20,896 nucleotides of DNA. Origin: Bacteroidales bacterium 45-6. GTDB lineage: Bacteria > Bacteroidota > Bacteroidia > Bacteroidales > Dysgonomonadaceae. The stretch spans positions 1 through 20,896 of the forward strand of contig MKRS01000096.1 in NCBI GenBank assembly GCA_001897035.1, given 5' to 3'. The first letter of the stretch is position 1. Each line of letters starts with the position of its first letter. This document shows, piece after piece, positions 199-4,507 of this stretch. The notes under the pieces are model-generated. The model was not told the DNA's origin. It worked only from the letters and a program-made list of their open reading frames with translations, and ran no database searches. The position numbers and the translations under genes were made by a program.

Positions 199-1233
199 TT
201 AAAACATCTTTTTCTTAAACCAAAATGCTACATTTACCAGTCCAATCATTACCGGAACTTCCACTAACGGACCAATTACGGCTGTAAAGGCTTCGCCGGA
301 GTTGATACCGAAAATAGCGATGGCAACAGCGATAGCCAGCTCGAAATTGTTACTAGCTGCGGTGAATGATAAGGTTGTTGATTGTTCGTAGGTTGCACCT
401 GCTTTTTTGCTCATAAAGAACGAAAACACAAACATAACTACAAAGTAAATAACCAACGGAATAGCAATACGCAAAACGTCCATTGGGATTTTCACTATGT
501 ATTCGCCTTTGAGCGAGAACATAACAATGATTGTAAACAGCAATGCAATGAGCGTTAACGGACTGATTTTAGGAACAAATTTAGTATCGTACCATTGAAC
601 ACTTTTCAGGCGGGTAAGAATGAAGCGAGTAAGAAAACCTGCAATCATCGGAATACCTAAATAGATAAATACACTCTTTGCAATGGCGCTCATGGTAATC
701 TGCGAAACCGAATCGTTTACAGGAAGTCCAAACCAACCGGGCAAAACGGCAATAAACACATAGGCATACACCGAAAATAGTAATACCTGGAAAAGCGAGT
801 TGAAAGCAACCAATCCGGCAGCATATTGGCGGTCGCCTTTCGCTAAATCGTTCCAAACAATGACCATTGCAATACAACGGGCTAATCCTATGAGGATAAG
901 ACCATACATGTAATCAATGTTGAATTGCAGAAAGATTATAGCAAGAAAAAACATCAATACCGGTCCGATAATCCAGTTTTGAACTAATGACAAACCAAGT
1001 ATTTTGGTGTTTTTGAATACGTCGCCCAATTCTTCGTATTTGACTTTTGCCAAAGGTGGGTACATCATAATGATTAATCCTATGGCAATCGGGATATTAG
1101 TTGTTCCCACTGAGAAGCTATTCCAAAAAGCAGCCACATTTGGACTGTACCAACCTGCAAAAACGCCAATGAACATGGCTAAAAAAATCCACAGAGTCAG
1201 ATAACGATCAAGAAATTTTAATCTTGTTTTCAT
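199..1233 (-). CDS. acr3: Acr3-family arsenite efflux permease
   Basis: This is an inner-membrane arsenite exporter of the Acr3 (BASS superfamily) type, 344 residues with about ten hydrophobic helices, the usual length for the family. The conserved Cys120 in the motif LARCIAMVIVWNDLA and Glu298 in NNFELAIAVAI match the cysteine and glutamate needed for As(III) transport in characterised Acr3 proteins. The GPLVEVPVMIGLV segment near the C-terminus is also typical. It is the last gene of the operon, 37 bp after hgcB, and is followed by stem-loops. It exports the As(III) made by the two arsenate reductases upstream. ArsA from the neighbouring operon might associate with it, although Acr3 proteins usually work without ArsA. 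Confidence 0.95.
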   Translation of the reverse strand: MKTRLKFLDRYLTLWIFLAMFIGVFAGWYSPNVAAFWNSFSVGTTNIPIAIGLIIMMYPPLAKVKYEELGDVFKNTKILGLSLVQNWIIGPVLMFFLAIIFLQFNIDYMYGLILIGLARCIAMVIVWNDLAKGDRQYAAGLVAFNSLFQVLLFSVYAYVFIAVLPGWFGLPVNDSVSQITMSAIAKSVFIYLGIPMIAGFLTRFILTRLKSVQWYDTKFVPKISPLTLIALLFTIIVMFSLKGEYIVKIPMDVLRIAIPLVIYFVVMFVFSFFMSKKAGATYEQSTTLSFTAASNNFELAIAVAIAIFGINSGEAFTAVIGPLVEVPVMIGLVNVAFWFKKKMF

Positions 1234-1270
1234 AAAGATATTTTATTGGTTTTAAAAATCTAACTAATTA

Positions 1271-1573
1271 TTAGCAACAACTTTTTTCACTTTCTCCGCT
1301 ACAATCGCAGGAGGGTTCGGTTCCATTTAAAATCCCATTCAGGATTCCGGCAGCGCACCCGACTCCCGATTTTACTGTAATTGCATCAAATCGACAATTC
1401 AGCGCACAAGCTCCACACTCCATACAATCGTTAATATCAATGATATGTGCTTTCCCTTTATTTATCTCAAATACTGCATGAGGACAAACCACAGCACACA
1501 TTCCGCAGCCGGTACATAAATCACTATTCAGTTTTAATGTAACCACGTTTTTTAAATACTGCATCGTCTTCAT
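1271..1573 (-). CDS. hgcB: HgcB, mercury-methylation 2x[4Fe-4S] ferredoxin
   Basis: This 100-residue ferredoxin has two [4Fe-4S] motifs: Cys20/23/26/30 (CTGCGMCAVVCP) and Cys50/53/56/60 (CMECGACALNC). After them comes VKSGVGCAAGI with Cys73, then a tail ending Ser-Cys-Cys (Cys99 and Cys100). That layout, with a lone Cys after the clusters and a terminal Cys pair, distinguishes HgcB from ordinary ferredoxins. HgcB is known to reduce the corrinoid of HgcA and is proposed to deliver Hg(II) through its cysteines. The ATG lies one base after the hgcA TGA (TGATATG), so the two are very likely translationally coupled. Extra Cys89 and Cys91 in the tail could add a thiol ligand site. The pairing with hgcA makes the call secure. 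Confidence 0.95.
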   Translation of the reverse strand: MKTMQYLKNVVTLKLNSDLCTGCGMCAVVCPHAVFEINKGKAHIIDINDCMECGACALNCRFDAITVKSGVGCAAGILNGILNGTEPSCDCSGESEKSCC

Positions 1574-1574
1574 A

Positions 1575-2600
1575 TCAAACTAATTTTGAGATAATGAATA
1601 AAATTATACCTAGAGCCATGCATCCGATCTGAAAAGGAACTGCCCATTTCATTTCTTTTTGAACTCCAGACAATGAAGTATAGGTTGATGAACCAGTAAA
1701 ATTCATGGTCATAAAGGAGGCAATGCTTATATTTACTAATCCGATACTTATTCCTTCCATGTAAGGAACTTCGATTAAAAAATATAAAAGAATTGTGAGT
1801 ACTAAACCCCAAAATGCTCCTTTCAAAGCAAATGCCCGAAATGGAACCCATGGCAAAAATAGGGTAGCAACAACAATCCCGACAATATAAGCTCCTACAA
1901 TGTTTATTAAAGGATATAAACAGGTTTCGAGCATTTTTGCAAACAAAAAGCCTGTCTTATCAAGACCCGAGAAGATAAAAAATCCGCACAATATCAGCAG
2001 TAGCTTGTATATTGCGTACATAAAATCAACCGGTATAAGTTTAGCTCGCTCAACCATGGGAAAAGCTATTTTTCTCATTTCTGGAGTTGCTTTATATCCA
2101 GCTTCAATAAACGATTTAATGTCTCTAGCCTGAACAGGACCAAATATGACTTTGAATCCGGTTTGCTCTTTTACTTTGTGTGCTGCCACTCCACTTGCCG
2201 ACAACTGTGGCAAAATGATTCTCCTGTGTTTTACAATATGTTCAAGCGAAGCTTTTTTTATACTTCTCACCACATTGTCAGTACCGAAGTTACCCTTTCC
2301 GGCAGCACACCAGACATTAACGCCTTTGGTATCGATAACCAACATCCAAACATTCAATGAATCGAGATTTTTTCTCAAAACATCAAAGCTCAATTTGTAA
2401 TTTGCCGAAACCAACACGTCTGATTGACTATCCGGTTTTCCAACTTTGTACAACCCCGGAGTAACAGTATAATTGTTTCTGTTAATGCCCAAACGTACTT
2501 TTAATGCTCCCAATAAATCAGATAATTCGAGTTCTGAGGATACAGTCGGAGTAGTAACTGAAACAGGCCTTAAAGATTGAACGTTTACCAGAGTTGCCAT
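1575..2600 (-). CDS. hgcA: HgcA, corrinoid mercury methyltransferase
   Basis: HgcA transfers a methyl group from its corrinoid to Hg(II), giving methylmercury. This protein has 341 residues, close to other HgcA. An N-terminal corrinoid-binding domain related to the corrinoid iron-sulfur protein spans about residues 20-170. It carries the diagnostic cap-helix motif NVWCAAGK at 95-102, in which Cys98 is the expected lower axial cobalt ligand. About five hydrophobic helices follow between residues 193 and 341, with the HgcA-typical stretch MNFTGSSTYTSLSG around 299-312. The soluble domain is expected to face the cytoplasm. The gene starts 6 bp after arsC and is followed directly by hgcB. Its place between arsenate reductase and acr3 in an ArsR-led operon is the odd feature. 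CFeSP gamma subunits lack this motif and membrane domain. Confidence 0.96.
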   Translation of the reverse strand: MATLVNVQSLRPVSVTTPTVSSELELSDLLGALKVRLGINRNNYTVTPGLYKVGKPDSQSDVLVSANYKLSFDVLRKNLDSLNVWMLVIDTKGVNVWCAAGKGNFGTDNVVRSIKKASLEHIVKHRRIILPQLSASGVAAHKVKEQTGFKVIFGPVQARDIKSFIEAGYKATPEMRKIAFPMVERAKLIPVDFMYAIYKLLLILCGFFIFSGLDKTGFLFAKMLETCLYPLINIVGAYIVGIVVATLFLPWVPFRAFALKGAFWGLVLTILLYFLIEVPYMEGISIGLVNISIASFMTMNFTGSSTYTSLSGVQKEMKWAVPFQIGCMALGIILFIISKLV

Positions 2601-2606
2601 TGAGTA

Positions 2607-3847: not shown

Positions 3848-3866
3848 ATGTCTATTTTTTATTAGT

Positions 3867-4193
3867 TTATTTGCAAACAAGCTCTTTACAATCACTCTCT
3901 TTGAAGAAATCATTAAATGCCACTTTGAAATCAGCAATTGCTGAACCACATAAGCAATAATTGATTTTTAGTCCATCCACTTGACCGCTAATGAGTCCCA
4001 TATCGCGCAATTCTTTTAGATGTTGCGAAACGGTGGTGCGGCTCAATGGTAATTTGTCGGAAATATCACCCGATATACATGTTTTAGTTTCGGCCAAATA
4101 TTTAAGAATAGCTAATCGAGCCGGGTGTGAAATAACCTTGGCGAAATTGGCCAGATCTTGTAAATCTTTATCAAATACTTCTGATTTTGTCAT
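3867..4193 (-). CDS. arsR: ArsR/SmtB-family repressor 1
   Basis: This is a winged-helix metalloregulator of 108 residues. The DNA-binding part includes ISHPARLAILKYL and the recognition helix region SRTTVSQHLKELRDMGLI (about 51-68). Candidate As(III) ligands are Cys39, Cys80 and Cys82 (NYCLCG), and Cys102 and Cys107 at the tail. The classical CxCxxC of the E. coli R773 ArsR is missing, so the sensing site differs from that type. Residues 18 to 68 are identical to ArsR-2 at 9658-10002. The two promoters share a 20-bp identical operator, so each protein probably binds both. Release from DNA on As(III) binding is known for the family; response to Hg(II) has not been shown here. Confidence 0.94.
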   Translation of the reverse strand: MTKSEVFDKDLQDLANFAKVISHPARLAILKYLAETKTCISGDISDKLPLSRTTVSQHLKELRDMGLISGQVDGLKINYCLCGSAIADFKVAFNDFFKESDCKELVCK

Positions 4194-4267
4194 TTTGCTT
4201 TGTTGAAAAATGTCATAAACGTAGAACGATAGATTGTTGTAAAATAATAATCAAGTCAGATAAGTTT

Positions 4268-4432
4268 TTAATCTATGTCCTTTTCTCGTTCAGCATCATC
4301 TTCCAAATCCTCTTGAGCATTCAAAGATGAAACCACGTCGTTTTTATCTTTTTGATTTCTTATTATCAAGAAGAAAATCAAAGCAATTGCACAAATAAAA
4401 ATCAGGGCTAAAGTAATCCAGTTTGTTTCCAT
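4268..4432 (-). CDS. Small single-pass membrane protein, function unknown
   Basis: This 54-residue open frame starts with ATG at 4432 and encodes METNWITLALIF, one hydrophobic helix (about 5-24), a basic stretch (RNQKDKNDK-like), and an acidic tail ending EDDAEREKDID. I do not recognise a family. It is the first gene after the operator-promoter at 4464-4507, with 31 bp of leader, and is followed after 74 bp by arsR-1. Its topology (short outside end, charged cytoplasmic tail, by the positive-inside rule) and place suggest a helper of a membrane component or a leader peptide. That is inference. The frame is clean and well placed, which supports real coding. Confidence 0.6.
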   Translation of the reverse strand: METNWITLALIFICAIALIFFLIIRNQKDKNDVVSSLNAQEDLEDDAEREKDID

Positions 4433-4463
4433 TGTGTTTGATTTTAAAGTAATACGAGTACTA

Positions 4464-4507
4464 TTGTTTTATGTCGCAAACATACGACATAAAACAACTA
4501 TTTCCAA
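4464..4507 (-). promoter_or_regulatory. ArsR operator overlapping the ars-hgcAB promoter
   Basis: A perfect inverted repeat with 13-bp arms (4464-4476 and 4485-4497) and an 8-bp spacer has the core ATGTCGCAAACATACGACAT at 4471-4490. On the minus strand the spacer reads TATGTTTG, an exact match to the Bacteroidota -7 box TAnnTTTG. A TTGG lies 19 bp upstream (4504-4507), the expected place of the -33 box. The operator thus covers the promoter core, so a bound ArsR should block RNA polymerase. The same 20 bases recur at 10016-10035. Downstream genes are the small membrane protein through acr3, including hgcAB. Confidence 0.88.

Follow-up and report, generated by a model that had tools for sequence, protein, structure and literature searches.

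Mercury methylation genes hgcAB in the arsM position of a Bacteroidales arsenic resistance operon

The window analyzed here is the whole of a 20.9-kb contig (20,896 nucleotides, MKRS01000096.1; G000:C96) from the draft genome of Bacteroidales bacterium 45-6 (899 contigs, 85% complete). It carries hgcA and hgcB within an arsenic resistance (ars) operon, where the pair fills the same slot between arsC and acr3 that is filled by arsM in many operons of genomes lacking hgcA. Methylation of Hg(II) is the established activity of HgcAB; ArsM is an arsenite methylase dependent on S-adenosylmethionine (SAM). The distribution of hgcA and arsM among the sampled Bacteroidales is almost complementary. From gene order, spacing, strand, a conserved operator, the shared slot and this distribution, we tentatively propose that the operon, which is predicted to be induced by arsenite, holds in HgcAB a likely corrinoid-dependent stand-in for ArsM.

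Gene content of the hgcAB-containing unit

All genes of the ars cluster lie on the minus strand. The transcription unit containing hgcAB comprises the following features, given in the direction of transcription.

4464..4497, minus strand: operator TTGTTTTATGTCG-TATGTTTG-CGACATAAAACAA, a perfect palindrome whose arms of 13 bp are centred on the −7 box TATGTTTG
4268..4432, minus strand: 54-codon open reading frame (ORF) for a small membrane peptide (from its translation), first gene behind the promoter
3867..4193, minus strand: arsR, repressor (NF033788, 61.9 bits, cut-off 55), with Cys39, Cys80 and Cys107
3416..3847, minus strand: the other arsC (TIGR02691, 114.5 bits, below 174.3; the match begins at residue 40 of a longer ORF)
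3081..3410, minus strand: small membrane protein of the ynfA family (NF002586, 145.5 bits, cut-off 114)
2607..3032, minus strand: arsC, low-molecular-weight (thioredoxin-type) arsenate reductase (TIGR02691, 132.6 bits, below the strict cut-off of 174.3; PF01451)
1575..2600, minus strand: hgcA, corrinoid protein (NF040863, 411.7 bits, cut-off 275)
1271..1573, minus strand: hgcB, 2x[4Fe-4S] ferredoxin (NF040864, 122.5 bits, cut-off 99)
199..1233, minus strand: acr3, arsenite efflux permease and final gene of the operon (TIGR00832, 447.1 bits, cut-off 282.8)

The gaps are 6 bp between arsC and hgcA, 1 bp between hgcA and hgcB and 37 bp between hgcB and acr3. An initial annotation, made from the sequence alone, had placed hgcA and hgcB between arsC and acr3 on one strand with short gaps, and this is borne out by the coordinates and by the scores on curated models. 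The hallmark motifs that it had named were also recovered (NVWCAAGK in HgcA; the cysteine at residue 73 and the terminal CC in HgcB). HgcB has CMECGA as well, and HgcA fits the Cys motif criterion N(V/I)WC(A/G/S)(A/G/S)GK. Genes for ArsR, arsenate reductase and arsenite efflux form one co-directional run in the window. The operon had been described as opening with arsR behind an operator-promoter; the operator-promoter is real, and the first gene behind it is the 54-codon ORF at 4268-4432, not arsR.

Both arsC products clearly belong to the thioredoxin-coupled ArsC family, though they score under the strict cut-off of the model. The likely start of the arsC at 3416..3847 is the ATG at 3847, internal to a listed ORF that begins at 3949. 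In an alignment of 32 ArsR sequences, Cys39, Cys80 and Cys107 were kept in 29, 32 and 28, respectively. The solved chains nearest to HgcA are large subunits of corrinoid/iron-sulfur proteins (2h9a, 4c1n, 4djd). An unrelated CdhD-like protein was rejected on the NF040863 score and on the presence of HgcB. The window's HgcA and HgcB match families other than that of ArsM (SAM methyltransferase fold; NF008823), so that HgcAB stands outside the ArsM family and may merely function like ArsM.

Linkage of hgcA to ars genes

Of 393 Bacteroidales genomes, 24 have HgcA over the cut-off, one of them being that of the window; so do 2 of 395 genomes of a class sample (the window's own and G141) and 2 of 395 genomes of a phylum sample (the window's own and G916). 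Occurrences outside the Bacteroidales (G141, G916) were too few for a control. In the 24 Bacteroidales genomes, arsC or acr3 lies within 10 kb of hgcA in 14, one of them the window's own, and five more have an ArsR gene within that distance and neither arsC nor acr3. In the 23 other genomes, 48 ars genes were found next to hgcA, and every one shares its strand. An acr3 over the cut-off is present in 21 of 25 hgcA-positive genomes (the 24 and G141), in single copy except in G479, and lies within 10 kb of hgcA in 10 of the 24. Because of this copy number and of genome size, linkage of acr3 to hgcA within 10 kb by chance is estimated at less than 1% per genome. In addition, ars genes adjoin hgcA in all 12 relatives recovered by one pattern scan of a genome collection, two of which belong to the 24. 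A chance neighbourhood was rejected on the linkage counts and on co-directionality. Linkage to ars genes is the rule for hgcA in Bacteroidales; passages of PMC7438021, PMC10349881 and PMC10504345 report the linkage itself, also for Bacteroidales, and what is new here is the counts.

For comparisons between loci, 36 hgcA loci were used in addition to the window. Two of these (L068 and L069) hold hgcA relatives under the cut-off; they were included in the 36-locus motif count and stand outside the 34-locus counts. Along with L065, they were also left out of the HgcA tree, which comprises the window and the remaining 33 loci. In L065 (G555), hgcA is broken by stop codons, and the arsR-arsC-hgcA-acr3 operon is otherwise recognisable. 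In L003 and L004, the Cys motif of HgcA reads NVWCSAAK in place of NVWCAAGK.

A gene for a DsbD/CcdA-like membrane protein (∼231 residues; PF02683 for the one tested) was seen at or near the upstream side of hgcA (for example L050:10508-11519, L060:1089-2105 and L056:10577-11585), often preceded by a gene for a Cys-rich membrane peptide of ∼105 residues. With a BLAST reference taken from an hgcA locus, this CcdA-like gene was found in 14 of the 36 hgcA loci and in 0 of 28 control ars loci. The protein is a possible electron or thiol partner for HgcAB.

The arsM slot and the distribution of arsM

Control loci were 28 acr3 loci from Bacteroidales genomes lacking hgcA. They come from the 30 best acr3 matches apart from the window's own, two of which (that of G448, on a contig of 4.4 kb, and the second one of G532) were left out. 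ArsM motifs occur in 15 of the 28 control loci and in 0 of the 36 hgcA loci. Note that L127 holds a fragment of ArsM alone; it was scored as positive in this motif count and as having none in the trees, in the ArsR alignment and in the counts of arsP and arsG. The control loci with ArsM often have the order arsC-arsM-acr3 (as in L104, L115, L120 and L123); the order arsC-hgcA-hgcB-acr3 is found in the window, L002, L005, L012, L013 and L047. Loci L008 and L115 have in common the layout arsR-trx-trx-arsG-arsP-...-arsC-X-...-acr3, in which X is hgcAB or arsM. Three ArsM proteins from control loci were searched with the curated arsenite methyltransferase model, and all passed (329-345 bits, cut-off 263); one control-locus ArsM searched against structures matched solved arsenite methyltransferases. 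The slot can also hold another gene, as in L108 and L109, for a protein that by eye resembles pyrroline-5-carboxylate reductase. In L108, L109 and L003, such a protein is encoded directly before acr3.

Across whole genomes, the curated ArsM model found no protein over its cut-off in the 25 hgcA-positive genomes. At E ≤ 1e-60, 104 of the 393 Bacteroidales genomes have ArsM, which contig ends truncate in a few of them. None of the 24 hgcA-positive genomes is among the 104, against 6.35 expected (P = 4.8e-4). Among genomes with acr3 over the cut-off, full-length ArsM is present in 0 of 21 with hgcA and 39 of 66 without (P = 3.4e-7; G409, with acr3 in pieces, is outside the 66). When 10 non-random hgcA-positive relatives were added, the counts were 3 of 35 versus 39 of 66 (P = 4.9e-7). 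Eight families (f1, f85, f117, f137, f138, f139, f166, f191) and four genera (g206, g259, g327, g328) hold hgcA and ArsM in different members; in f138, with only five genomes, one has hgcA and four have ArsM. In the literature searched, which was mostly outside subscription journals and covered in part, no statement that hgcAB replaces arsM was found, and within that scope the slot result is new here.

Operator and predicted regulation

The 8-bp centre of the palindrome, TATGTTTG, matches TANNTTTG, the Bacteroidota −7 consensus. A TTG (−33), which reaches 4507, stands 20 nucleotides before this box. The same 20-bp core (ATGTCGTATGTTTGCGACAT) lies immediately upstream of the arsR at 9658..10002, and the arsR near 15360 has its own palindromic promoter with a related palindrome (∼15381-15408). 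Palindromic TANNTTTG sites number 20 in 593 kb (the 36 hgcA loci and the window), versus 1.0 expected from first-order Markov sequences; 16 of the 20 are at the start of an arsR or of an ars gene set, and the other four are elsewhere. Ten more were counted in the 28 control loci, among them the arsM-type operons L102, L106, L115, L120 and L126. The operator is conserved across related loci, and binding by ArsR is predicted.

No TANNTTTG box was found from the operator to hgcA. One sigma-70-like site, matching at 11 of 12 positions, lies between them inside ynfA (3172-3144); such sites are not above chance in this region (28 versus 24.1 expected in 8 kb). A separate promoter of the Bacteroidota type for hgcA was rejected on these two results. 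Two TANNTTTG boxes lie inside hgcA, and the one with a TTG at promoter spacing (1885) could serve as a promoter for hgcB and acr3. Several features back the view in the initial annotation that hgcA belongs to an ArsR-controlled ars operon: the order, spacing and common strand of the genes, the conservation of the operator, and the finding of no Bacteroidota-type promoter inside the operon ahead of hgcA. From this arrangement we infer that As(III) would induce the operon, hgcA included.

Movement between operons

In the best trees of acr3 and arsC, hgcAB-type and arsM-type operons interleave, with at least seven and at least nine changes, respectively. Repeated swapping of hgcAB and arsM is weakly supported by these trees, because the hgcAB label is more clustered in both than in shuffles and because well-supported branches force three changes (acr3) and one change (arsC); both facts also count against our proposal.

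Between the window and L002, a 2.85-kb arsC-hgcA-hgcB-acr3 block has 86% DNA identity and the other matched blocks have 73-76%. Values for synonymous divergence (dS) between the window and L010 were 0.7 for hgcA and 0.6 for hgcB, versus 2.7 for acr3, 1.7 for arsC and 1.6 for arsR. The higher identity of the block to L002 and the lower dS of hgcAB to L010 therefore suggest that hgcAB was transferred as one block from one ars operon to another. Note that L002 is binned as Peptostreptococcaceae (Bacillota), and misbinning is possible. Within hgcA, the stretch at 1836-2136 of the window has an identity to L002 of ∼0.70-0.73, versus 0.81-0.93 for other slices, and is possibly recombined or fast-evolving.

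At 0.55 kb from the ars cluster, the window holds a gene for an N-6 DNA methylase/helicase (15914..20845) of a type borne on Bacteroidota plasmids. The six best tblastn records for it are Bacteroides and Phocaeicola plasmids (63-67% identity over 96-99%), which suggests that a mobile element may carry the ars cluster. There is no relaxase or transfer gene among the annotated genes of the 20.9-kb contig. Searching 72,556 plasmid records by tblastn gave no match to hgcA, megablast of the window against plasmids gave none, and one pattern scan of viral contigs found no hgcA. The contigs of L002, L010 and L004 have no exact terminal repeat, so that circular molecules are unproven. Passages of PMC7438021 and PMC9690531 report no mobile carriers of hgcA.

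Weighing of explanations

Several points weigh against HgcAB as a stand-in for ArsM, beyond the clustering in the trees. Five of the 24 hgcA-positive Bacteroidales genomes have no nearby ars gene (one on a 3.3-kb contig and one at a contig end). The control loci are biased toward best-scoring acr3, and the P values for hgcA and arsM ignore kinship. Three of the 10 added relatives (the genomes of L006, L009 and L011) have full-length ArsM, on another contig than hgcA; in the genome of L009 it sits in a separate, second ars operon. An ArsM-like protein of ∼180-196 bits, below the cut-off of 263, is present in 12 of 25 hgcA-positive genomes (11 of 25 at E ≤ 1e-30). Those that were aligned are mostly ∼215 residues long and keep three Cys, and similar ones occur in hgcA-negative genomes, so that hgcA-positive genomes may have a second arsenic methylase. 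Since 27 of the 66 acr3-positive genomes without hgcA have no full-length ArsM (one of them holds a fragment where its contig ends), the slot is optional. PMC12953829 lists arsM among the arsenic genes of hgcA-carrying metagenome-assembled genomes, and passages of McDaniel et al. 2020 (PMC7438021) place arsM close to hgcAB in some genomes; these reports from other taxa weigh against strict exclusion. The presence of arsP or arsG was rejected as a sign of methylarsenic handling, since the counts do not discriminate: arsP is found in 7 of 34 hgcA loci, 2 of 14 arsM loci and 4 of 14 loci with neither, and arsG in 11 of 34, 6 of 14 and 7 of 14, so arsP is not tied to methylation. Finally, arsenic is a putative substrate of HgcAB.

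One alternative is that HgcAB methylates only Hg(II) and that the ars operon lends it a promoter responsive to thiol-binding metals, together with shared transfer. HgcAB is a known Hg(II) methylase and the window's pair has its motifs; MerA over its curated cut-off was found in 1 of 36 hgcA-positive genomes, so that the hosts mostly have no reductive route for mercury. This account leaves the mutual avoidance of hgcAB and arsM and their common slot unexplained, and it also faces the co-direction of all 48 ars genes near hgcA in the 23 sampled genomes; we consider it unlikely. Appreciably less probable is the absence of any functional equivalence, with ars operons gaining and losing accessory genes, hgcAB being transferred along with them and the avoidance of arsM reflecting the lineages sampled. 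That the slot holds other genes (L108 and L109) or nothing (L118), that many acr3-positive genomes have neither gene, that sampling is sparse with kinship uncorrected and that the hgcAB label clusters in the trees would all fit such an account. Set against it are the families and genera in which some members have hgcA and others ArsM, and the interleaving on the best trees, of which few changes fall on well-supported branches. Very improbable, in our judgement, is that ArsM and HgcAB occupy a common slot through a common role in making methylated poisons (methylarsenite and methylmercury) against competitors, with permeases that protect the producer. ArsP and ArsG are encoded in the same cluster, and anoxic arsenic methylation is, according to PMC11653729, proposed to be microbial warfare, but arsP is found also in loci with neither hgcAB nor arsM.

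If HgcAB does stand in for ArsM, as we tentatively prefer, ArsR would leave the operator on binding As(III), ArsC would turn arsenate into As(III), HgcAB would methylate As(III) from its methyl-corrinoid, and Acr3 would export As(III) that was not methylated. As a second activity, the module would methylate Hg(II), and arsenic exposure would therefore raise that capacity too. A carbanion-type methyl transfer has been proposed for Hg(II), and the SAM route of arsenic methylation includes an oxidation step. Transfer of this type would yield trivalent methylarsenic directly, with the oxidation step skipped. In Pseudodesulfovibrio mercurii ND132, deletion of hgcAB reportedly increases sensitivity to As(V). 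Passages of PMC6950371 report that, under reducing conditions, methylcobalamin can methylate As(III) non-enzymatically. The initial annotation had offered two possibilities, that arsenic raises methylmercury formation or that HgcAB itself helps to handle arsenic; sequence alone does not separate them, and the arsM-slot result favours the latter. A bolder form of the proposal seems to us improbable: that the native role of HgcAB in anaerobes is B12-dependent methylation of arsenite without SAM, with the pair as an ArsM analogue that takes the place of ArsM in ArsR-controlled operons and moves between them as a cassette, and with mercury methylation as a side activity.

The native function of HgcAB bears on the prediction of methylmercury, and the arsM-complementary slot and distribution give it a specific, testable candidate, arsenic methylation. 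If this is true, arsenic exposure would set both expression of and selection for the methylmercury pathway in Bacteroidota, and surveys of hgcAB would need to be read alongside arsenic chemistry. Should arsenic methylation prove false, mercury methylation inducible by arsenic would still be predicted from the operon.

Other genes of the window

The ars cluster is far larger than the initial annotation gave, and extends to 15360 with arsD, arsA, a pair of ATP-binding cassette (ABC) transporter genes, two more arsR, arsP and arsG. Neither arsM nor the mobile-element gene is named in that annotation.

4568..6283, minus strand: arsA, arsenite pump ATPase (TIGR04291, 816.9 bits, cut-off 650)
6464..6790, minus strand: arsD, metallochaperone (NF033727, 129.6 bits, cut-off 90)
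6886..9625, minus strand: ABC transporter ATPase, permease and a 273-residue protein without a family match (family searches)
9658..10002, minus strand: second arsR listed, likely true start ATG 10002
10137..12183, minus strand: thioredoxin-like protein, two DGC-domain proteins and an extracytoplasmic function (ECF) sigma factor (family searches)
12213..13280, minus strand: permease of the arsP family (PF03773, 243 bits, cut-off 32.3)
13573..14271, minus strand: permease of the arsG family (NF040495, 310 bits, cut-off 200)
14287..15360, minus strand: 141-residue protein without a Pfam match, thioredoxin-domain protein and third arsR listed (family searches)
15914..20845, minus strand: N-6 DNA methylase/helicase, 1643 residues (tblastn)

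In the direction of transcription, the upstream part reads methylase/helicase, arsR, thioredoxin-domain gene, 141-residue gene, arsG, a gene for a small [2Fe-2S]-type protein and arsP. The middle part follows with the ECF sigma factor, the two DGC genes, the thioredoxin-like gene, arsR, the 273-residue gene, the ABC pair, arsD and arsA, and the last unit with the small membrane ORF, arsR, arsC, ynfA, arsC, hgcA, hgcB and acr3. The trio of ABC ATPase, permease and 273-residue protein was found again in L002, L009 and L013.

Comparison with known systems

HgcA has in common with the large subunit of the corrinoid/iron-sulfur protein of the acetyl-CoA pathway the corrinoid-binding domain PF03599. 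The window's HgcA differs in that it has NVWCAAGK and passes NF040863, and the match is limited to its first half (residues 22-167). An ArsR-family gene lies upstream of hgcAB both here and in P. mercurii ND132 (Gionfriddo et al. 2023, cited in PMC10349881), where, according to passages of PMC10349881, hgcAB is under ArsR control and its transcription responds to arsenic. Unlike the ND132 arrangement, the pair in the window is part of a complete resistance operon that includes arsC and acr3, its host is a member of the Bacteroidales, and the promoter is of the Bacteroidota type and carries a palindromic operator. Neighbourhoods of the same kind, Bacteroidales included, are described in passages on hgcAB loci with acr3 and arsC as flanking genes (McDaniel et al. 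2020, PMC7438021) and on Prolixibacteraceae with hgcAB and arsenic genes (PMC10504345). The replacement in the arsM slot, the control counts, the operator and the apparent block transfer go beyond what those passages report. The closest counterparts are the arsR-arsC-arsM-acr3 operons of Bacteroidales, which have the same skeleton and operator as the window with arsM in the place of hgcA-hgcB; in one of these (L115), the flanking arsC and acr3 have 78% and 75% DNA identity to those of the window.

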